This document shows positions 48,597-63,770 of a DNA stretch of 64,000 bases, in pieces. The notes under the pieces are model-generated. The model made no database searches. It was given only the letters and a program-made list of their open reading frames with translations, and was not told where the DNA came from. Every line of letters starts with the position of its first letter. Positions within the stretch are counted from its first letter, which is position 1. The translations under genes were made by a program, and so were the position numbers. Origin of the DNA: Comamonadaceae bacterium. Lineage in GTDB: Bacteria; Pseudomonadota; Gammaproteobacteria; Burkholderiales; Burkholderiaceae_C. The stretch spans positions 1 through 64,000 of the forward strand of contig JAJTEW010000010.1 of NCBI GenBank assembly GCA_021299875.1. The letters are read 5' to 3'.

Positions 48597-49163
48597 ATGC
48601 ATTTCAGCACCGCGCACATCCTTGGTCTTTACCAGCAAGCCGCTCACCGCATTCATTCGGGGGAGCGTGTCACCCATTTGGCACACGCCTGGCAGTGTGG
48701 TCGCTTGGCTGAGAAGTCCGGCGCCAGTTTGAAATTACAACTGGCCAGTTGGTTGCATGATATTGGCCATTTGTGGGCGCAACAAAGTGCGCTGACGACG
48801 GATCCGGCTGTCAAGGGTCATGCCGCTTTGGGTTCGAGGCTTTTAGAGCCTTTGTTTGGTTTAGGCGTTTCTGAGCCTGTGCGCCTGCATGTGTTGGCCA
48901 AACGTTACTTGGTCACCACCCGTGACAGTTACGTACGAAAACTGTCGCCACAAAGCTTGCGAAGTTTGACTCACCAAGGCGGCGTCTTGAATGAGGGCGA
49001 ATGTTCTGATTTTGAGCGTCAGGCATTCTTTGCCGAGGCCATTCAGCTCAGGATATGGGACGACTTGGGCCAAAAAGACGGTTGGTTTGAGATCTCGATT
49101 CAAGACGCGCTCGACCAGCTGGACGGTTTGATGCAATCGGTCGCAGCCCAGTGCGTCACTTAA
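48597..49163 (+). CDS. HD-domain protein related to PhnZ-type oxygenases or phosphohydrolases
   Basis: 188 residues. GERVTHLAHAWQCGRLAEKSG and LASWLHDIGHLWAQQ contain the HD metal ligands (His30, then His-Asp in LHDIGH). The arrangement resembles the HD proteins associated with phosphonate breakdown, where PhnZ also uses a Tyr and a Glu just before the first His; here Glu23 is kept but the Tyr position is His20. No phosphonate genes are adjacent, though the next genes belong to phosphate metabolism. Hydrolase or oxygenase activity cannot be decided. Confidence 0.7.
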   Translation: MHFSTAHILGLYQQAAHRIHSGERVTHLAHAWQCGRLAEKSGASLKLQLASWLHDIGHLWAQQSALTTDPAVKGHAALGSRLLEPLFGLGVSEPVRLHVLAKRYLVTTRDSYVRKLSPQSLRSLTHQGGVLNEGECSDFERQAFFAEAIQLRIWDDLGQKDGWFEISIQDALDQLDGLMQSVAAQCVT

Positions 49164-49192
49164 TTTTCACGCAAAAGACATTTTCTTGACAC
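49164..49192 (+). promoter_or_regulatory. Pho-box-like triple direct repeat upstream of the OlsB-like gene
   Basis: TTTTCAC, AAGACAT and TTGACAC recur at an exact 11-base period (49164, 49175, 49186), the spacing of PhoB half-sites (consensus CTGTCAT plus four bases). The last repeat doubles as a possible -35; TCTTAT at 49211 is a weak -10. The match is weaker than for ppk, phoX and pstS. Confidence 0.5.
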
Positions 49193-49237
49193 GTTCGCCA
49201 CGCACCATCGTCTTATTGATGACAAGGAGCGTGTGCC

Positions 49238-50083
49238 ATGAAAGAGATTCCCAACCCCACTTTTGATTTGTCGCCGGTCCAGTTGCCCAGGGGGTCGCTT
49301 CATCCAAGATCAAATCAAGTCCAAACTGACTTCTTGCCTCGCAGCGTGCAAAGCACCATTCAGGTCTGTTGGGCGCAACATCAAGACGAAGTTCGTGAAG
49401 CGCAGCGCTTGAGGTATTCGGTATTCGCCAACGAGTTGGGTGCGCGTTTGCCCAAGACCATCGAGGGCCACGACATCGACCTGTTCGATGACTATTGCGA
49501 GCACCTGTTGGTGCGCGATACGGCCACGGGACAAGTGATTGGTACTTATCGGGTGTTGACCCCGGTCCAAGCCAAGCGAGCGGGCAGCACCTACAGCGAT
49601 ACCGAATTTGACCTGACCCGTTTGCGTGGCATGCGCAACCGCATGGTCGAGTTGGGCCGCAGTTGTGTGCATGTTGACCACCGCCATGGTGGGGTGATCA
49701 TGGCCTTGTGGGGTGCTTTGTTTGAATTCATGGACCGCAACCGCCTGGACACCATGATCGGCTGTGCCAGCATTCCCATGTTGCACAACGGCGTCGTCAG
49801 CGGCGATGTGGCCGCCAGCATTTGGCACCAATTGCGTCAAAACCACCTGGCTGATATCCAATTCCATGTGCGCCCCCGTTTGGCGCTGCCCGTCGAGCAG
49901 CTGGACCACCACCTGTCGATAGAGCCGCCTGCCCTCATCAAGGGTTACCTGCGATTGGGTGCAAAAGTGCTGGGCGCCCCCGCTTGGGATCCAGACTTCA
50001 ACACCGCCGATTTGCCCATGATGATGCGCATTGCTGAATTGCCAGCACGCTATAAAAAACACTTTGCATCAGCTTCCCAATGA
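49238..50083 (+). CDS. OlsB-like N-acyltransferase (GNAT fold; ornithine lipid synthesis candidate)
   Basis: 281 residues. QRLRYSVFANELGARL, IGTYRVLTP and especially VELGRSCVHVDHRHGGVIMA with LDTMIGCASIPM match the OlsB/autoinducer-synthase-like acyltransferases that transfer a 3-hydroxyacyl chain to ornithine. Ornithine lipids replace phospholipids during phosphate starvation in many bacteria, and a Pho-box-like repeat precedes the gene and ppk1 follows, which fits. No OlsA-like gene is in the window. GGAG lies just upstream of ATG 49238. Confidence 0.66.
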   Translation: MKEIPNPTFDLSPVQLPRGSLHPRSNQVQTDFLPRSVQSTIQVCWAQHQDEVREAQRLRYSVFANELGARLPKTIEGHDIDLFDDYCEHLLVRDTATGQVIGTYRVLTPVQAKRAGSTYSDTEFDLTRLRGMRNRMVELGRSCVHVDHRHGGVIMALWGALFEFMDRNRLDTMIGCASIPMLHNGVVSGDVAASIWHQLRQNHLADIQFHVRPRLALPVEQLDHHLSIEPPALIKGYLRLGAKVLGAPAWDPDFNTADLPMMMRIAELPARYKKHFASASQ

Positions 50084-50201: not shown

Positions 50202-50235
50202 TTGTCATCAAACTGACACGTTGAATTTTTAAAAT
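50202..50235 (+). promoter_or_regulatory. Pho box and -10 element of the ppk1 promoter
   Basis: TTGTCAT-CAAA-CTGACAC (50202-50219) is a 7+4+7 PhoB site close to CTGTCAT-N4-CTGTCAC. TAAAAT (50230-50235) follows after exactly ten bases, the standard position of the -10 in PhoB-activated promoters. The start codon lies 24 bases further on. Confidence 0.78.
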
Positions 50236-50258
50236 GTTTTGAAGTTCACGAGACAAAC

Positions 50259-54984: not shown

Positions 54985-55344
54985 TCAGCAGCGGGCTGGT
55001 TCGCAAGCCAAATTGAGCAAGTCGCCGCACGGCACGCCCTGGCAGCAATGGGCGGTCAAAAAGTCCATCAGGCTTTGCATGGCGCTCAGGTCGGCGCGGT
55101 AGCGCAAAAACCGGCCTTCGCGTTGCACACTGACCAAGGCGGCGTGGTGCAATTCTTTGAGGTGAAAAGACAAGGTGTTGGCGGGAATGTCGAGTGCTGC
55201 AGACAATTGCCCCGGTTGCACGCCTTCTGGGCCTGCACCCACGATGGCGCGGAAAACTTTCAGCCGTGAACTCTGCGCCAAAGCCGCCAAGGCCTTGATG
55301 GCCACGTCCTCGTCCATGACGCTGAACAAAGACACTGGATTCAT
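54985..55344 (-). CDS. arsR: ArsR-family arsenic-responsive repressor
   Basis: 119 residues, a winged-helix repressor (LAALAQSSRLKVFRAIVGAG, IPANTLSFHLKELHHAALV). The C-terminus has Cys100, Cys101 and Cys106 (HCCQGVPC) plus Cys114 and Cys119, resembling ArsR types in which a C-terminal Cys-Cys pair and a third Cys bind As(III). ATG 55344 overlaps the arsJ stop by four bases. It is the last gene of the operon and probably represses the operon promoter upstream of the GAPDH gene. Confidence 0.9.
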   Translation of the reverse strand: MNPVSLFSVMDEDVAIKALAALAQSSRLKVFRAIVGAGPEGVQPGQLSAALDIPANTLSFHLKELHHAALVSVQREGRFLRYRADLSAMQSLMDFLTAHCCQGVPCGDLLNLACEPARC

Positions 55345-56537
55345 GGCGCCACCTTTTCTGAAGCGTTGTGTGTCAGCAAGCCCATGGGCAAGCGCAGCGT
55401 GGCCAGCCAGCACACGGCCAGCATCAACGCCGAGCCCAGCAGCGCGTACAACAAGCCGCCCCATTGGTACAACACGCCCGACAACAAAGTCCCCATGAAA
55501 CGGCCCAACGCATTGGCTGCGTAGTAAAAACCCACGTCTTCGGCCGCTTTTTCTGAGCCTGCATAGGCCAGCACCAAATAACTGTGCACCGAGGAGTTGA
55601 TGGCAAAGGCAAAGCCAAACAGGCTCAAGCCACCCACCACCCACCATTGCAGCTGTGGCGCTTGCAGCCACACGGCTGCCGCAATGCCCAAAGGAATGAG
55701 CGTGAGCACAGCGGACCACCAACGCGCTGCGGGTACTTCGTGGCTCAGGCCATCGGCACTGCGGCGAACCAGCTGCGGGGCCAGCGCTTGCACCAGGCCA
55801 TAGCCAATGGTCCAGGCCGCCAAAAAGCCGCCCACCATGGTGAAGGTCCAGCCCACCGAATACAAAAACACCGGCACGCCCACCACAAACCACACATCGC
55901 GTGCACCGAACAAGGCCACGCGGGCGGCGGCCAAAGCGTTGATGCCCGAGTTTTTGGCGAACAGCTCACGCGCGGAACCCGAGGCCTTGCTCTTGCCCAT
56001 CATCGGCGGCAAGCTGATGACCACACCGATCAACACCACGGCCAGCACTGCAGCCATGGCCCACAGCGAGCCCTGAAAGCCCAGTGTCTCGGTGAACCAA
56101 GCCACCCATTTGAACAATTGGCCATTGCCTGTGTCTTTGGCTTGCGCTTGTGTGATCTTGATGGCCGATTTGCTGGCAGTTTTGGTCAGGTCCTTGGCCA
56201 CACCGCACACCCCTTGCGCCAGCACCACCCAAGCCACCGACATGGCCGCTGTCCAGTCTGGCTGCAGGGCCGAGAGCAGACCAAAGCCGATGATCTGCGT
56301 GACCAAGCCCACGGTGAGCATGCGGGCAATGCCAAAGCGCGTGGCCAGCCAGCCGCCGATCAGGTTGGCCAACACGCCCGCGCCCTCGTAGAGCAAGAAC
56401 AAAAAGGCCAGCGTGAACGGCGAGTAACCCAGTTTGTAAAAGTGCAGCAGCACCAACATGCGCAAAGCGCCATCGGTCAGGGTGAAGCCCCAATACGCCG
56501 CTGTGACGATGCCGTAGTTGCGTTCAGCGGCATTCAT
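55341..56537 (-). CDS. arsJ: organoarsenical efflux MFS transporter ArsJ
   Basis: 398 residues with about twelve membrane helices. YGIVTAAYWGFTLTDGALRM and LLHFYKLGYSPFTLAFLFLL with LYEGAGVLANLIGGW are the signature of ArsJ. In characterised systems ArsJ exports 1-arseno-3-phosphoglycerate made by the adjacent GAPDH, which then falls apart outside to release arsenate. The start lies one base after the GAPDH stop and the end overlaps arsR, so all three genes are one unit. Confidence 0.92.
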   Translation of the reverse strand: MNAAERNYGIVTAAYWGFTLTDGALRMLVLLHFYKLGYSPFTLAFLFLLYEGAGVLANLIGGWLATRFGIARMLTVGLVTQIIGFGLLSALQPDWTAAMSVAWVVLAQGVCGVAKDLTKTASKSAIKITQAQAKDTGNGQLFKWVAWFTETLGFQGSLWAMAAVLAVVLIGVVISLPPMMGKSKASGSARELFAKNSGINALAAARVALFGARDVWFVVGVPVFLYSVGWTFTMVGGFLAAWTIGYGLVQALAPQLVRRSADGLSHEVPAARWWSAVLTLIPLGIAAAVWLQAPQLQWWVVGGLSLFGFAFAINSSVHSYLVLAYAGSEKAAEDVGFYYAANALGRFMGTLLSGVLYQWGGLLYALLGSALMLAVCWLATLRLPMGLLTHNASEKVAP

Positions 56538-56538
56538 C

Positions 56539-57582
56539 TCAGATGCCGACTTCGTTCATGTGGCAGGCCAAATCGACCATGCGGCAGGCGTAGCCCATCT
56601 CGTTGTCATACCAAGCATAAATTTTGAGCAGCGTGCCATCGGTGACCATCGTCGACAACGCGTCCACGATCGCGCTGCGCGTGTCGCGGGCATAGTCCAC
56701 GCTCACCAAGGGACGCTCCTCGTAGCCCAAAATGCCCGCCAGCGGGCCTTGGGCGGCCGCGGCAAACAAAACGTTGACCTCTTCGGCGCTGGTTTCGCGC
56801 TGCATTTCAAACACGCAGTCGGTCAGCGACGCGTTGAGCACCGGGGCACGCACGGCGTGACCGTTGAGCTTGCCCTTGAGTTCGGGGTAAATCAGCGCAA
56901 TCGCGGTGGCACTGCCGGTGGTGGTGGGGGCCAGGCTGACCATGGCGCTGCGGGCGCGGCGCAGGTCCTTGTGCGGCGCGTCCACCACCAGGTTGGTGTT
57001 GGTCGGGTCATGGATGGTGGTGATCTGGCCGTGCTTGATGCCAATGGCTTCGTGCACCACTTTGACCACCGGGGCCAGGCAGTTGGTGGTGCACGACGCG
57101 GCCGTGACGATGCGGTCTTTGGCCGGGTTGTACAGCGTGTGGTTGATGCCCACCACGATGTTCAGCACATCGCCCACCTTGATGGGCGCAGCCACGATCA
57201 CGCGCTTGGCGCCCCGGTCCAGGTGGCCCTGAAGGGTCTCGGGCGTCAAAAATTTACCGGTGCATTCCAGCACCACATCCACGCCCAAGTCGCCCCATGG
57301 GATGTCGGCCGGGTTGGCGTGCGAAGAAAATGAGAGTGTGCGCTCACCAATGCGGATTTCGCTGTCGCCTTGCGCCTCAATGCGCTCGCGCCACTTGCCC
57401 TGCACGCTGTCAAAAGCCAGCAAATGCGCGGTGGCCGCTGCGCCGCCTTTGAGCTCGTTCAGGTGCACCACCTGCAGGCGGTTGCCTGCGCGGGGGTCGT
57501 CGGACTGGCGCTCGGCAGCGCCCAGGGCCGCACGCAAGGCCAAACGGCCGATGCGGCCCATCCCGTTGATTCCGACTTTCAT
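56539..57582 (-). CDS. gap: glyceraldehyde-3-phosphate dehydrogenase of the arsenate-resistance (ArsJ) operon
   Basis: 347 residues. [18 protein letters not shown] is the NAD-binding start, [16 protein letters not shown] holds the nucleophile Cys164 and [11 protein letters not shown] the catalytic His191. All catalytic residues are present. GAPDHs in ArsJ operons use arsenate in place of phosphate to form 1-arseno-3-phosphoglycerate for export. Direct linkage to arsJ and arsR identifies this as the dedicated copy; it is not in a glycolytic cluster. Confidence 0.9.
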
Positions 57583-57616
57583 GGCGATTCCTTTTCTTTA
57601 ATTCGATGACTATGGA

Positions 57617-57650
57617 ATTGTGACTTGTCATTGTGTCAACTGAATGACAT
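57617..57650 (-). promoter_or_regulatory. Pho-box-like repeat overlapping an inverted repeat in the gap-arsJ-arsR promoter
   Basis: In the leftward direction ATGTCAT-TCAG-TTGACAC (57650-57633) is a 7+4+7 repeat like the Pho boxes nearby, with CACAAT (57622-57617) ten bases on as a weak -10. The same DNA contains TGTCATT (57626-57632) and AATGACA (57643-57649) as an inverted repeat over the TTGACA, which could be the ArsR operator. Both readings are possible, and both could be true. Confidence 0.5.
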
Positions 57651-57774: not shown

Positions 57775-58824
57775 TCAATCCGCAGGGGCCAAGACCACCT
57801 CGATCGCGTACTGTGTCGGAAGCGGTCCAGTTTGCTGAACCCGCAGCGTCATGGCCCCTTCACCCAGTTGAGACTTGGGTATATTGGCCAACACATTACG
57901 CCCCAATTGACGGGCCCCCATGTGGCCATAGACCCACATGCGCGAGACATCCTCGCCTGCATCAAACACCGTGTTGCGTTGCAAAGCATAAGAGGCCATG
58001 GCTTCTTGCGATTCATACTGGACCAACTTGATCGACAGCACCTTTTGTCCTCTAGGGATGTCCCAACGCACATAGTCGGCATCGCCGCGCACCACCTCGC
58101 CATGGATCAAATAGGTCTGCAAGCCCGGCGTCAAAATGCTGGGCTGCAATGGGTTACCTGATGCTTCATGGGCCATCAGGCTTGGGTTTTGCAGGTCAAA
58201 GGCTTGGGCTCCAGAAGCGTTGCCAGCCAAGTCCACTTGGCGCAACCAAATGCGGCTCAAGCTGTTGCCCAAAATGCCCAGCGCGGTGCATTGACCGACC
58301 GCCCATGAGTGCTGTTCATCCAGCGAATACTCCCAGCGCGCACCAGGTTCAATGCCCGAGAGTTTCAAGCTGAGGGTCACCCCTTCGGTTTGGTCGGCGA
58401 CACCCAAAGCCGCAGGTGCCGTCGTGTCTAAAACACAGTTGACGCGCACGATCTCAGACCTGTTGCCTGCGTCATCGCGCGCTCGCACCCAAATCATTTT
58501 GGCGCCGTCGCCCGTGACTTCAAAAGAGGAGCCTATGCCCCGCGTCCAGGTGGCGCCTTGGTCCAATGAAAACTCCCAGTCCATGCCAGGACTGTCCACT
58601 GCCCACAAACCGTTGCGCGTGACGCCGTCGCTCACACTCAGGCCTGTATCGTTGAATGACAAAACTGGGGCTTTGAGGATGACTGCGCCCAACATTGGAA
58701 GAGGTCTTGGGCTTAATCCAGCTGGGGATGCTTTTTCGATGCCAGAGCCTGCGCAAGCGGTCAAACAAGTCACCACGGTCAGCGCGATGGCAGGCCGCGA
58801 AAAAAAATAGTTGTCAAACCACAT
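57775..58824 (-). CDS. lipoprotein with repeated Ig-like domains, function unknown
   Basis: 349 residues. The signal peptide ends at the lipobox CLTAC (C24). Two copies of an Ig-like unit can be seen: WEFSLDQGATWTRG with WVRARDDAGNRSE, and WEYSLDEQHSWAVG with WLRQVDLAGNASG. The last third (VRWDIPRGQKVLSIKLVQYE) looks like a separate beta domain. ATG 58824 is chosen because AGAAG sits eight bases upstream. It is divergent from phoX and shares its promoter region. I do not recognise a named family. Confidence 0.72.
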   Translation of the reverse strand: MWFDNYFFSRPAIALTVVTCLTACAGSGIEKASPAGLSPRPLPMLGAVILKAPVLSFNDTGLSVSDGVTRNGLWAVDSPGMDWEFSLDQGATWTRGIGSSFEVTGDGAKMIWVRARDDAGNRSEIVRVNCVLDTTAPAALGVADQTEGVTLSLKLSGIEPGARWEYSLDEQHSWAVGQCTALGILGNSLSRIWLRQVDLAGNASGAQAFDLQNPSLMAHEASGNPLQPSILTPGLQTYLIHGEVVRGDADYVRWDIPRGQKVLSIKLVQYESQEAMASYALQRNTVFDAGEDVSRMWVYGHMGARQLGRNVLANIPKSQLGEGAMTLRVQQTGPLPTQYAIEVVLAPAD

Positions 58825-58911
58825 GGGCATCACTTCTTGAATGGACAAAGTTCATTGATACACACCCATGTGTCAAAAAAATGAAACTCAAAAACATTGC
58901 ATTTCGTCAAG

Positions 58912-58946
58912 GTGTCATACAACGGTCACATCCGTTGTCCAAGATA
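58912..58946 (+). promoter_or_regulatory. Pho box of the phoX promoter
   Basis: GTGTCAT-ACAA-CGGTCAC (58912-58929) is a 7+4+7 site close to the PhoB consensus. AAGATA (58941-58946) follows after 11 bases as a -10 candidate, with the start codon 38 bases further. Confidence 0.7.
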
Positions 58947-58983: not shown

Positions 58984-61209
58984 ATGTCACACCACGACCA
59001 CGACCCCATTTTCAACACCTCTGACAACGCCCATTTTCAAGACGTGCTGGCCCAATCCCTGCAAAACCCTGCTCGTCGCGGCTTGCTGCGCGGTGGCTTG
59101 GGCTTGGCTGGCTTGGCCATGCTGCCCGGTTGCGCGACCCTGACTTCGGACATGGCCGCTGTGCCCAAGGCCTTGGGCTTTCCTTCTGTCGGCAAGAGCT
59201 TGCTCGACAACGTGATGTTGCCGCCGGGTTACCAGTACAGCGTGTTGCATGCCACCGGCGATGCCCTGGATGCATCCTTGGCCGCCTATTCGAACAAAGG
59301 CACAGAAGCGGACGACTGGTCCCGCCGCATTGGCGATCACCACGATGGCATGGACATTTACTACATCGACGCCAAGGGCAAGTACTCTGAAAAAGACACG
59401 GGCCGCGCCGTGCTGTGTGTGAACCACGAGAGCTCAGCCGACGCGCACTTCATGCACCCCAATGGCCAGACCTCCAACCGCGTCAGCGGCAAAAAATTCA
59501 CACAATTTGGCGACTGGGACTTGGGTGTACGCCCTGAGCTTGAAGTGCTCAAAGAGATCAACCACCATGGCGTTTCGGTGGTCGAGATCGTCAAGACGCC
59601 TCAGGGCTGGCGCGTCAAGCAAGACTCGCCGCTCAACCGCCGCATCACGGCGCAAACCCCTGTGCGCATCAGCGGTCCTCGCGGCCACATTGAGGCCATT
59701 CGCAGTTTCATGGTCACCCGCTGGGATGCAGCAGGCGGCATGGCGCGTGGCACGCTGAACAACTGTGGCCATGGCAAAACCCCTTGGGGCACCTATTTGG
59801 GTTGCGAAGAAAACTGGGCTTTTTATTTCCAGACCACAGGTGCGGGTGCGGCTTTGCCCGCCAATGAAGTGGCCTCGCGCAGGCGTTACGGCGTGCCGGC
59901 TGCGGCACCCGCTGCGGGTGCGACCCGCGCGCCCAGTCAGGGCTGGCATACCGTCTCGGCCACCGACGACCGTTTCGCCCGCTGGAACTTGGCGGCCACT
60001 GGTGCCAATGCTGAGCGCGATTTCCGCAACGAAGCCAACACCTTTGGCTACAACGTCGAGATCGATCCCTTGGATCCCAACTCCACGCCGGTCAAACGCG
60101 TGTCCATGGGCCGCTTCGCCCACGAGGCGGCGGTGTGCAGCTTGCCTGTGGCGGGTCAGCCGCTGGCGTTCTACATGGGCTGTGATGCCCGCAACGAATA
60201 CATCTACAAGTTCGTGTCTACGGCCGTGTGGGATCCGCGCGATGTGGGTGGCGGCCTGTTGGCCGGTGACAAGTACTTGAGTGAGGGCAAGCTGTATGTC
60301 GCCCGTTTCGATGCCACAGGCCAGGGTGAGTGGTTGGAGCTGACCATCGCCGATCCACGCATTGCCAACCACAGCGCCTACAAGTTTGCCAACCAGGCCG
60401 ATGTGTTCATCAACGCGCGGTGGGCGGCAGACGCTGTGGGCGCGACCAAAATGGACCGTCCGGAGTGGGGCGCGGTGAACTACCGCAATGGCGAGGTGTA
60501 TTTCGCCTTGACCAACAACAATGCAGCCAACCGTACACCCTCTAAAACCGATCCTGCCAATCCTCGTGCCTACATGGATCTGGACGGCGTCAAAGGAACG
60601 GGTAACCCGCACGGTCACATCATCCGCTTCAAAGAGCCAGGCCACCAAGCCACAGCCAAGACCTTTGCCTGGGACATCTTTTTGTTTGGCGCAGAAGAAG
60701 ACTCGGGCGACGCGAACCTGTCGGGCCTGACCGCCAAGAATTCGTTCTCTTCGCCCGACGGCCTGTGGTTCAGCAAGGCCACCGGCATTTGCTGGATCCA
60801 AACGGATGATGGCGCTTTCACCGACGAGACCAACTGCATGATGTTGGCCGCCATTCCGGGCCAGGTGGGAGACGGCGGCAAAGTGACCGTGAAAAACAAG
60901 ATGATGGTGGGTGGTGCAGAGCAAAACGGCACCCAAGAAACTTTCATGGGAGCGGCCTTGGGCGAGGCCAAGTTGCGCCGTTTCCTGGTGGCACCCCAAG
61001 GTGCAGAAGTCACCGGGATCACCGAGACGCCAGACGGCCGTACCTTGTTCGTCAACATCCAGCACCCTGGCGAATTGTCCAAACCGTTGGCTTCAGGCGC
61101 GGCGCCCCAAAGCCAGTGGCCTGGCAATGCCGGCTATGGTCCTCAAGGCCGCCCACGTTCGGCCACCATTGTCATCACCCGAGCGGATGGTGGTGTGATC
61201 GGCCTGTAA
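58984..61209 (+). CDS. phoX: PhoX-type alkaline phosphatase
   Basis: 741 residues. A Tat signal (RR31-32 in PARRGLLRGGLGLAGLAM) runs into a possible lipobox LPGC (C50), so the protein is exported folded and may be lipid-anchored. AVLCVNHESSADAHFMHP, GTLNNCGHGKTPWGTYLGCE and NGTQETFMGAAL are conserved in PhoX (DUF839), a calcium- and iron-dependent phosphomonoesterase. It releases phosphate from organic esters outside the cytoplasm. Pho-box control and a strong terminator mark it as a single-gene unit. Confidence 0.92.
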   Translation: MSHHDHDPIFNTSDNAHFQDVLAQSLQNPARRGLLRGGLGLAGLAMLPGCATLTSDMAAVPKALGFPSVGKSLLDNVMLPPGYQYSVLHATGDALDASLAAYSNKGTEADDWSRRIGDHHDGMDIYYIDAKGKYSEKDTGRAVLCVNHESSADAHFMHPNGQTSNRVSGKKFTQFGDWDLGVRPELEVLKEINHHGVSVVEIVKTPQGWRVKQDSPLNRRITAQTPVRISGPRGHIEAIRSFMVTRWDAAGGMARGTLNNCGHGKTPWGTYLGCEENWAFYFQTTGAGAALPANEVASRRRYGVPAAAPAAGATRAPSQGWHTVSATDDRFARWNLAATGANAERDFRNEANTFGYNVEIDPLDPNSTPVKRVSMGRFAHEAAVCSLPVAGQPLAFYMGCDARNEYIYKFVSTAVWDPRDVGGGLLAGDKYLSEGKLYVARFDATGQGEWLELTIADPRIANHSAYKFANQADVFINARWAADAVGATKMDRPEWGAVNYRNGEVYFALTNNNAANRTPSKTDPANPRAYMDLDGVKGTGNPHGHIIRFKEPGHQATAKTFAWDIFLFGAEEDSGDANLSGLTAKNSFSSPDGLWFSKATGICWIQTDDGAFTDETNCMMLAAIPGQVGDGGKVTVKNKMMVGGAEQNGTQETFMGAALGEAKLRRFLVAPQGAEVTGITETPDGRTLFVNIQHPGELSKPLASGAAPQSQWPGNAGYGPQGRPRSATIVITRADGGVIGL

Positions 61210-62649: not shown

Positions 62650-62683
62650 TTGACACAAACTTGTCACAATTGGCAATTAAAGT
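62650..62683 (+). promoter_or_regulatory. Pho box and -10 element of the pstS promoter
   Basis: TTGACAC-AAAC-TTGTCAC (62650-62667) is a strong 7+4+7 PhoB site, and TAAAGT (62678-62683) follows after ten bases as the -10. The leader to the start codon is about 60 bases. Confidence 0.8.
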
Positions 62684-62747: not shown

Positions 62748-63770
62748 ATGCTGAAATTTAAATCCCTCGTGGCCGCCATCGGTCTGAGCGCTGTGGCTGC
62801 CACCACTTGGGCTGCCGACATCACCGGCGCAGGCGCGACATTCCCGTTCCCAATTTACGCCAAGTGGGCCGAAGCCTACAAAAAAGAGACTGGCGTGGGC
62901 TTGAACTACCAGTCGATTGGCTCTTCCGGTGGTATCCGTCAAATCCGCGCCAAGACCGTGGCTTTTGGTGCCACAGACGCGCCTGTCAGCGGTGCTGACC
63001 TGGACAAGGACGGCATGGTGCAGTTTCCTGCCATCATTGGTGGCACCGTGCCTGTGTTCAACCTGGACGGTTTTGGCAAGGGCGATCTGCGCGTGACCGG
63101 CCCCGTGTTGGCCGAAATGTTCATGGGCAAGATCAGCAAGTGGAACGACCCCAAGTTGGCCGCCTTGAACCCTGGCAAGCGCCTGCCTGACACCACCATC
63201 ACCGTGGTGCACCGCGCTGACGGCTCGGGCACCACCTTCAATTGGACCGACTACCTGGCAACTGTCAGTAAAGAGTGGATGGACACCGTGGGCCGTGGCG
63301 CCGCAGTCAAGTGGCCAGCCCCTACATCCGTGGGTGGCAAGGGCAACGAAGGTGTGGCTGCCAACGTGTCCCGCACCAAAGGCTCGATTGGTTACGTGGA
63401 ATACGCCTATGCCAAGAAAAACAACATCGCTGTGATGGCGCTGCAAAACAAAGCCGGCAACTATGTGATGCCTGACGACGAGACATTTGCTGCAGCAGCA
63501 GCCGGTGCCGACTGGTTCAGCGTGCCAGGTATGGGTCTGTCCATCGTGGACCAGCCAGGCGCCAAGTCTTACCCTGTCACCACAGCTTCGTTCATCTTGA
63601 TGTACAAGACGCCCGCCGACAAAGCCCAATCTGCAGAAGTGTTGAAGTTCTTTGACTGGTCTTTCAAGAATGGCAAGAAGATGGCGCTGGAATTGGAATA
63701 TGTGCCACTGCCTGATTCTTTGACCAATCAGATCCGCCAGCGTGTGTGGAACCAGATCAATACCAAGTGA
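62748..63770 (+). CDS. pstS: phosphate ABC transporter substrate-binding protein
   Basis: 340 residues with a Sec signal peptide cleaved near TWAAD. GAGATFPFPIYAKWAEAYKK, LNYQSIGSSGGIRQI, FGATDAPVSGADLDKDGMVQ and HRADGSGTTFNWTDYL are the phosphate-binding loops of PstS. It captures phosphate with high affinity, and arsenate with lower affinity, for the PstCAB permease. AGGAG precedes ATG 62748. A terminator-like hairpin separates it from pstC. Confidence 0.96.
   Translation: MLKFKSLVAAIGLSAVAATTWAADITGAGATFPFPIYAKWAEAYKKETGVGLNYQSIGSSGGIRQIRAKTVAFGATDAPVSGADLDKDGMVQFPAIIGGTVPVFNLDGFGKGDLRVTGPVLAEMFMGKISKWNDPKLAALNPGKRLPDTTITVVHRADGSGTTFNWTDYLATVSKEWMDTVGRGAAVKWPAPTSVGGKGNEGVAANVSRTKGSIGYVEYAYAKKNNIAVMALQNKAGNYVMPDDETFAAAAAGADWFSVPGMGLSIVDQPGAKSYPVTTASFILMYKTPADKAQSAEVLKFFDWSFKNGKKMALELEYVPLPDSLTNQIRQRVWNQINTK

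Follow-up and report, generated by a model that had tools for sequence, protein, structure and literature searches.

Introduction

Arsenate enters cells through phosphate transporters, so the danger it poses peaks when high-affinity phosphate uptake is switched on. GapJ, the ArsJ-associated glyceraldehyde-3-phosphate dehydrogenase (GAPDH), forms 1-arseno-3-phosphoglycerate, and ArsJ exports this product. GAPDH-ArsJ arsenate efflux was reportedly described by Chen et al. in 2016 in Pseudomonas aeruginosa DK2. Here, we describe the gap-arsJ-arsR operon found in a 64-kb window (the whole stretch of DNA analysed, from a Comamonadaceae bacterium) and its composite promoter. This arsenate-export operon is probably activated by PhoB and repressed by ArsR, the two regulators forming an AND gate.

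The var operon of Vibrio cholerae (PMC9601151) resembles this locus in that arsR, a GAPDH gene and arsJ form a single operon that is inducible by As(V), repressed by ArsR and confers resistance independently of ArsC. It differs in having arsR as the first gene and an extra phosphatase gene, and PhoB is not mentioned in the available parts of that article. The same enzyme-permease pair is found in Halomonas GFAJ-1, in an island with the pst operon; the accessible portions of the source (PMC5930303) neither mention PhoB nor describe a composite promoter. Arsenic loci of Agrobacterium tumefaciens are subject to both PhoB and ArsR (PMC7965956, PMC3834237, PMC7533571, PMC4415409), and in Halomonas HAL1, PhoB was shown to bind a Pho box at aioBA (PMC4563254). 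Unlike the locus studied here, the targets named in the available text of these papers are aio, phoB1 and pstS1, not gap-arsJ. In cyanobacteria, arsR-sphX/pstS-gap-arsJ clusters link gap-arsJ to a phosphate-binding protein (PMC9846622, PMC3610870, PMC4284471). According to the parts of these reports that are available, the largest log2 changes listed for Nodularia under P limitation were 2.41 (gap) and 1.20 (arsJ), most arsenate-related genes showed no clear response to P limitation according to the Nodularia authors, and arsB of Crocosphaera is said to be induced by phosphate starvation; PMC4284471 infers co-regulation by arsenic. These clusters differ from ours in belonging to another phylum, and the term 'pho box' is absent from both Nodularia texts in the form available. 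Searches of the open-access literature, which omits most subscription papers, brought up no account of a joint PhoB/ArsR promoter of gap-arsJ. The module is known, and PhoB/ArsR cross-talk is known elsewhere; what appears to be new is the conserved, putatively two-signal promoter on gap-arsJ.

Results

The operon and its promoter

A preliminary description of the locus proposed a tight leftward gap-arsJ-arsR operon with a Pho-box-like promoter, and the coordinates, family scores and promoter box all agree with it. In the open reading frame (ORF) list of the window, gapdh, arsJ and arsR occupy positions 54985-57582 on the leftward strand. The first gene (56539-57582, minus strand) encodes GapJ, a protein of 347 residues matching NCBIfam NF033735 (G3PDH_Arsen) with 544.9 bits (cut-off 450). 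It is followed by arsJ (55341-56537, minus strand), encoding a permease of the major facilitator superfamily (MFS) of 398 residues that matches NF033734 (MFS_ArsJ) with 459.9 bits (cut-off 400). The last gene, arsR (54985-55344, minus strand), encodes a repressor of 119 residues with a C-terminal CC-x4-C motif; the closest solved structure is PDB 6J05, an ArsR (E 1e-21), and the top NCBIfam match is HTH_metalloreg (51.8 bits, below the cut-off of 55). The cysteines of the motif are retained in nearly all aligned relatives. Only 1 bp separates gap from arsJ, arsJ and arsR overlap by 4 bp, and there is no room between the genes for internal promoters.

The motif ATGTCAT-TCAG-TTGACAC upstream of gap lies at 57633-57650 on the minus strand. 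It contains a Pho box made of two half-sites with an 11-bp period, TGTCAT-N5-TGACAC (57633-57649, minus strand), which matches the half-site model TGWCAY-N5-TGWCAY at 12 of 12 positions (threshold at least 11 of 12). Four 12/12 sites are present in the 64-kb window, all within 48.5-62.7 kb, and none was found in any of 5 shuffles; sites of at least 11/12 numbered 13, compared with 1-5 in the shuffles. Ten nucleotides past the Pho box lies an inferred -10, CACAAT (57617-57622, minus strand). An ArsR-operator-like inverted repeat, TTCCATAGTCATCGAA (57602-57617, minus strand), starts exactly 15 bp past the Pho box and overlaps the -10. The Escherichia coli phoA promoter (MG1655 record) has a Pho box, ten bases and TATAGT, that is, the same 10-nt gap. 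The promoter scan revealed no ordinary -35/-10 promoter at gap (promoter matches 1, shuffle mean 1.0), an absence that fits an activator-dependent promoter, although as weak evidence; the terminator scan was no richer than shuffles (6 versus 6.2). PhoB itself is encoded 3.3 kb beyond the window, at contig position 67297 (TIGR02154, 333.3 bits, cut-off 296.2). Another candidate ArsR site, TGTCATT..AATGACA, came from the first inverted-repeat scan. Its arms lie within or just after the Pho half-sites, and it was set aside; the relatives instead share the TTCAA-N6-TTGAA repeat further downstream.

With a Pho box apparently at the place of a -35 and a repeat over the putative -10, we infer an AND gate. 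Phosphorylated PhoB would bind the Pho box standing in for the -35, and ArsR would bind the inverted repeat covering the -10 and the start region. Transcription would then peak under the combination of phosphate scarcity (PhoB on) and intracellular arsenic (ArsR off), tying arsenate disposal, with GapJ making 1-arseno-3-phosphoglycerate and ArsJ expelling it, to the moment when Pst uptake makes arsenate entry likeliest. Binding, logic and physiology are all predicted here from DNA sequence. The dual PhoB/ArsR switch envisaged in the preliminary description gains support in the same way, from the Pho box being conserved in relatives at a fixed distance from the ArsR-operator-like repeat.

Conservation of the composite element

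According to the preliminary description, a promoter repeat not conserved in relatives with the same operon would refute the proposal; a comparison of 135 promoters showed it to be conserved in the two nearer groups defined below. These promoters derive from 172 loci with a GapJ match. Usable stretches, of which there were 152, had a mapped start with 100 or more bases upstream, a GapJ identity above 50% and a length of at least 120 bases; 135 were left once near-identical ones had been taken out. The 77 class-level genomes above the ArsJ cut-off contributed 75 stretches, the window's genome and one contig-end row being left out. Promoters were grouped by GapJ identity, not by taxonomy, into a nearest (at least 90%, n = 23), a middle (78-90%, n = 62) and a distant group (below 78%, n = 50). 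The middle group is mostly Burkholderiales and includes two genomes of the window's genus (L033 and L034) and some Thauera records. Two loci, L063 and L087, are lake metagenome bins that have the operon and whose records are titled Bordetella parapertussis; they are most likely misnamed.

A Pho box scoring 11/12 or more was found upstream of gap in 19/23 nearest, 43/62 middle and 9/50 distant promoters (shuffle means 0.4, 0.2 and 0.2, respectively). The TTCAA-N6-TTGAA repeat reached at least 9/10 in 37/62 middle (shuffle mean 0.7), 8/23 nearest (1.0) and 1/50 distant promoters (0.4), and was perfect (10/10) in 25 of the 62 middle-group promoters. Where both elements were strong (n = 36), box and repeat lay 15 bp apart in 27 promoters, 26 bp apart in 4 and 30 bp apart in 5. 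We therefore defined the composite element as a Pho score of at least 10/12 and a repeat of at least 8/10 at a spacing of 15, 26 or 30 bp. So defined, it was present in 20/23 nearest, 42/62 middle and 0/50 distant promoters. It did not occur in 20 shuffles of each set or on the antisense strands, the shuffle comparison being mildly optimistic because the spacings were taken from the same data. The peak at 15 bp holds regardless of which spacings were chosen: in the middle group this distance was found in 38/62 promoters and 26 bp in 6, and any other value from 0 to 44 in at most 2.

A logo built from 44 aligned promoters shows the Pho box in columns 0-16, followed by ten weakly conserved bases, the -10 at 27-32 and the repeat at 32-47. 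The -10 columns read [AT]A[TC]A[AT]T, with A28 in 100% and A30 in 84% of the sequences. Both are independent of how the promoters were selected; T32 is also part of the repeat used for selection. Genes, DNA elements, fixed spacing and conservation are matters of direct observation. The nine distant loci whose Pho box scores 11/12 or more, among them L227, L234 and L263, are without the composite element; gap-arsJ may have come under Pho control on more than one occasion.

The preliminary description also stressed that the operon is embedded in a phosphate island. This is true of the window, and each of the 16 nearest loci (L043-L057 and L059) has one or more of phoX, pstS, ppx and ppk, but such a setting is not essential. 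Among the middle-group composite loci with at least 12 kb of sequence, 21/32 contained no match to PhoX, PstS, Ppk and Ppx of the window (more than 40% identity); two of these 21, L065 and L096, have a PhoX-like match at 36-37%. The composite element therefore travels with the operon, and the promoter appears to belong to the operon more than to the island.

Control sites away from gap

Among 49 operator-like sites scoring at least 9/10 at gap promoters, 31 were accompanied by a Pho box (11/12 or better) exactly 15 or 26 bp away. Elsewhere in the gap and pstS loci examined, none of 118 operator-like sites had a Pho box at these distances, and neither did any of the 15 found in ACR3 loci (0/133 when pooled). 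For two of the 118, a Pho box lies at a different distance. One of them is the window ppk promoter (50203-50245), where an operator-like repeat scoring 9/10 or more comes 8 bp after a 12/12 Pho box, probably by chance.

Separate arsR promoters were available at 8 loci with arsR before gap on the same strand (L092 was excluded, its arsR start being off the contig). The repeat reached at least 8/10 in 7 of them (shuffle mean 0.56) and at least 9/10 in 4 (shuffle mean 0.02), and the Pho score was 9/12 or lower at all 8. In the 30 ACR3 loci, 12 arsR starts were examined; the repeat reached 9/10 or better at 3 of these, and one of the 12 (L179) had a Pho score of 11/12 without the repeat. The presence of the repeat at arsR promoters lacking a Pho box indicates that the Pho box belongs to gap-arsJ rather than to ArsR promoters generally. 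The repeat thus accompanies ArsR promoters at varying strength, and the Pho box accompanies gap-arsJ.

In the whole genome, the box followed by 15 bases and TTC had 1 exact match and 3 further matches with one mismatch, and the reversed-pattern control had none. A genome-wide Pho pattern allowing 2 mismatches gave 57 matches versus 8 in the reversed control and was dropped as too loose.

Weighing one-signal control

Several observations count against the composite, two-signal promoter. To begin with, the window repeat scores just 8/10 against TTCAA-N6-TTGAA, and its -10 is weak, with 4 of 6 positions matching TATAAT. If the repeat were not an ArsR site, the operon would simply track phosphate starvation under PhoB alone. 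The modest score of the repeat agrees with this explanation, as do the 9/50 distant promoters whose Pho box scores 11/12 or more, none of which has the composite. We nevertheless consider it improbable: the repeat overlaps the -10 at a fixed spacing, and a similar repeat is found at 7/8 separate arsR promoters lacking a Pho box.

A second group of observations concerns the Pho box. A matrix trained on 49 pstS/phoX promoters (70 before near-duplicates were taken out) was tried before the half-site count. It gave the window gap box 6.9 bits, compared with 16.7 bits for window phoX and 27.1 bits for window pstS (L131), and only 7/23 nearest, 12/62 middle and 3/50 distant gap promoters reached 14 bits (shuffle means 0.1, 0.1 and 0.0). 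The half-site count was adopted after the matrix had rated the gap boxes poorly, and choosing a scorer with the sequences already known is a weakness of the analysis. The low matrix scores are probably due to the gap boxes being mostly TGTCAT-first and the pstS boxes TTGACA-first. The gap box is a full fit to the general Pho half-site consensus, yet not of the local pstS type. Antisense strands also reached at least 11/12, in 14/23 nearest, 12/62 middle and 2/50 distant promoters, probably because of the divergent phoX in the nearest group, and in the others because TGTCA and TGACA half-sites partly mirror one another. The 6.9 bits of the window box would suit control by ArsR alone, the Pho-box-like repeat then being either coincidental or part of an extended ArsR operator. 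In agreement with this possibility, control by ArsR in A. tumefaciens 5A is stated to be phosphate-insensitive in the available text of PMC7965956. The 12/12 half-sites, unmatched in shuffles, argue against it, as do the 133 operator-like sites elsewhere, all without a Pho box 15 or 26 bp away, and a spacing to the -10 equal to that of E. coli phoA. We judge ArsR-only control as unlikely as PhoB-only control; neither would account for two conserved elements in fixed phase.

The composite element is also absent from 3/23 nearest, 20/62 middle and all 50 distant promoters. Finally, the nature of the inducer poses a difficulty, this genome having an ArsR of a probably As(III)-sensing kind while no clear ArsC was found. 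An ArsR with CC-x4-C should sense As(III). The genome (3.13 Mb, 22 contigs, 99.94% complete) gave no PF01451 match, and no ArsB at E 0.001 in a search that was positive in 6/14 control genomes but not in its E. coli; ACR3 was represented only by a 35-bit match (cut-off 282.8). The sole PF03960 protein matched the PRK10853 'ArsC family reductase' with 119 bits (cut-off 121), the Spx/MgsR family with 84.7 (cut-off 75.05) and the arsenate reductase TIGR00014 with 27.5 (cut-off 106.05); it fits Spx/YffB-like families better than arsenate reductase. In the available text on the var operon, the V. cholerae authors consider that their ArsR may sense As(V) (PMC9601151).

A gate or a pulse

It had been proposed that the cell induces arsenate disposal pre-emptively whenever high-affinity uptake opens. 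The position of the repeat speaks against this version: with an ArsR-like site over the -10, PhoB alone should be unable to sustain an open promoter in the presence of ArsR, and an AND gate or a transient pulse would fit better. In the pulse, an incoherent feed-forward, starvation would trigger a burst of GapJ, ArsJ and ArsR without arsenic, and ArsR would then shut the promoter unless arsenic is present. This refines the AND gate, so that the probabilities of the two overlap, and it retains part of the pre-emptive idea. The gene order gap-arsJ-arsR is consistent with a pulse, since ArsR encoded last in a PhoB-dependent operon would be scarce in phosphate-replete cells. The ArsR complement of the genome points the same way. 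A Pfam HTH_5 search, which found four proteins in the genome (the CC motif being absent in the three inspected), overlooked the window ArsR; the search was redone with this protein as the query, and no second match was found in its own genome at E 0.001. Conversely, basal ArsR may already repress the promoter from the outset, and no pulse is expected in the relatives that have a separate arsR promoter. We regard the pulse as a tentative possibility, somewhat on the doubtful side. The broader proposal, a portable, geometrically fixed PhoB-ArsR gate in the gap-arsJ operons of Burkholderiales and near relatives that doubles as a starvation-onset pulse generator where arsR is last, has in our view close to an even chance of being right, though slightly less.

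A gap in ArsJ

When 110 ArsJ sequences were aligned (that of the window, its own copy L013 and 108 others, including some near-duplicates), the window ArsJ proved to lack 18 residues after residue 149, the reading frame being intact. The 18 missing columns are filled in more than 90% of the other sequences and in all 43 relatives displayed. AlphaFold2 models were built from 29-sequence alignments. In the ArsJ of the relative L043, the model has a helical stretch of 53 residues (141-193; mean predicted local distance difference test, pLDDT, 85.5), which would be long enough for two membrane passes. In the window ArsJ, the helical stretch is predicted to cover only 30 residues (146-175; mean pLDDT 79.5), with low confidence at 136-150. 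The complete membrane region of relatives, where intact ArsJ copies are present, appears to be lacking from the window protein.

The absence of these residues makes export doubtful in this genome, whose operon may be unable to complete the final step despite its retained promoter. What had been described as a compact detoxification system may not export at all in this bacterium. The operon could be a decaying relic in which GapJ acts alone or which is neutral, an explanation compatible with the composite promoter. The 18-residue gap and the shrinkage of the helix with its poorly modelled start are in its favour; the retention of the frame, GapJ, ArsR and the promoter is against it, and the gap could be an assembly error. 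On balance, a relic is a serious possibility to which we give somewhat less than an even chance.

The surrounding phosphate island

Positions 48-64 kb of the window look like a phosphate-starvation island. An HD-domain protein (48597-49163) with a 12/12 Pho box at 48558-48574 matches TIGR03276 with 166.6 bits, under the cut-off of 214.6; it is related to phosphonate-degrading oxygenases and is possibly a Pho-controlled phosphonate enzyme. Next to it, a relative of ornithine-lipid acyltransferases (49176-50083; 164 bits, under the cut-off) has an 11/12 Pho box upstream, which suggests phosphate-saving lipid replacement. A 12/12 Pho box is also found at ppk, at 50203. Downstream, the phosphatase gene at 58984-61209 (plus strand; 11/12 Pho box at 58913-58929) has no NCBIfam match, and we take it to be of the phoX type, following the name it was given earlier. 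The pstS gene (62754-63770, plus strand; NF008171, 385.7 bits, cut-off 339) has a 12/12 Pho box at 62651-62667. The operon had been placed between ppx and phoX; this location is correct, except that an ORF of 357 residues (57775-58848, minus strand) intervenes between gap and phoX. It has an 11/12 Pho box at 58870-58886 (minus strand) and an OmpL47-like domain match under the cut-off.

Discussion

If the two-signal promoter is real, it would explain how a costly pathway, which spends a glycolytic intermediate, is limited to the right moment. Its sequence would also serve as a signature by which phosphate-dependent arsenic cycling could be recognised in fresh waters low in phosphate, and the promoter would be a natural two-input gate of compact size. 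We would further predict that phosphate-rich media mask arsenate export in these bacteria.

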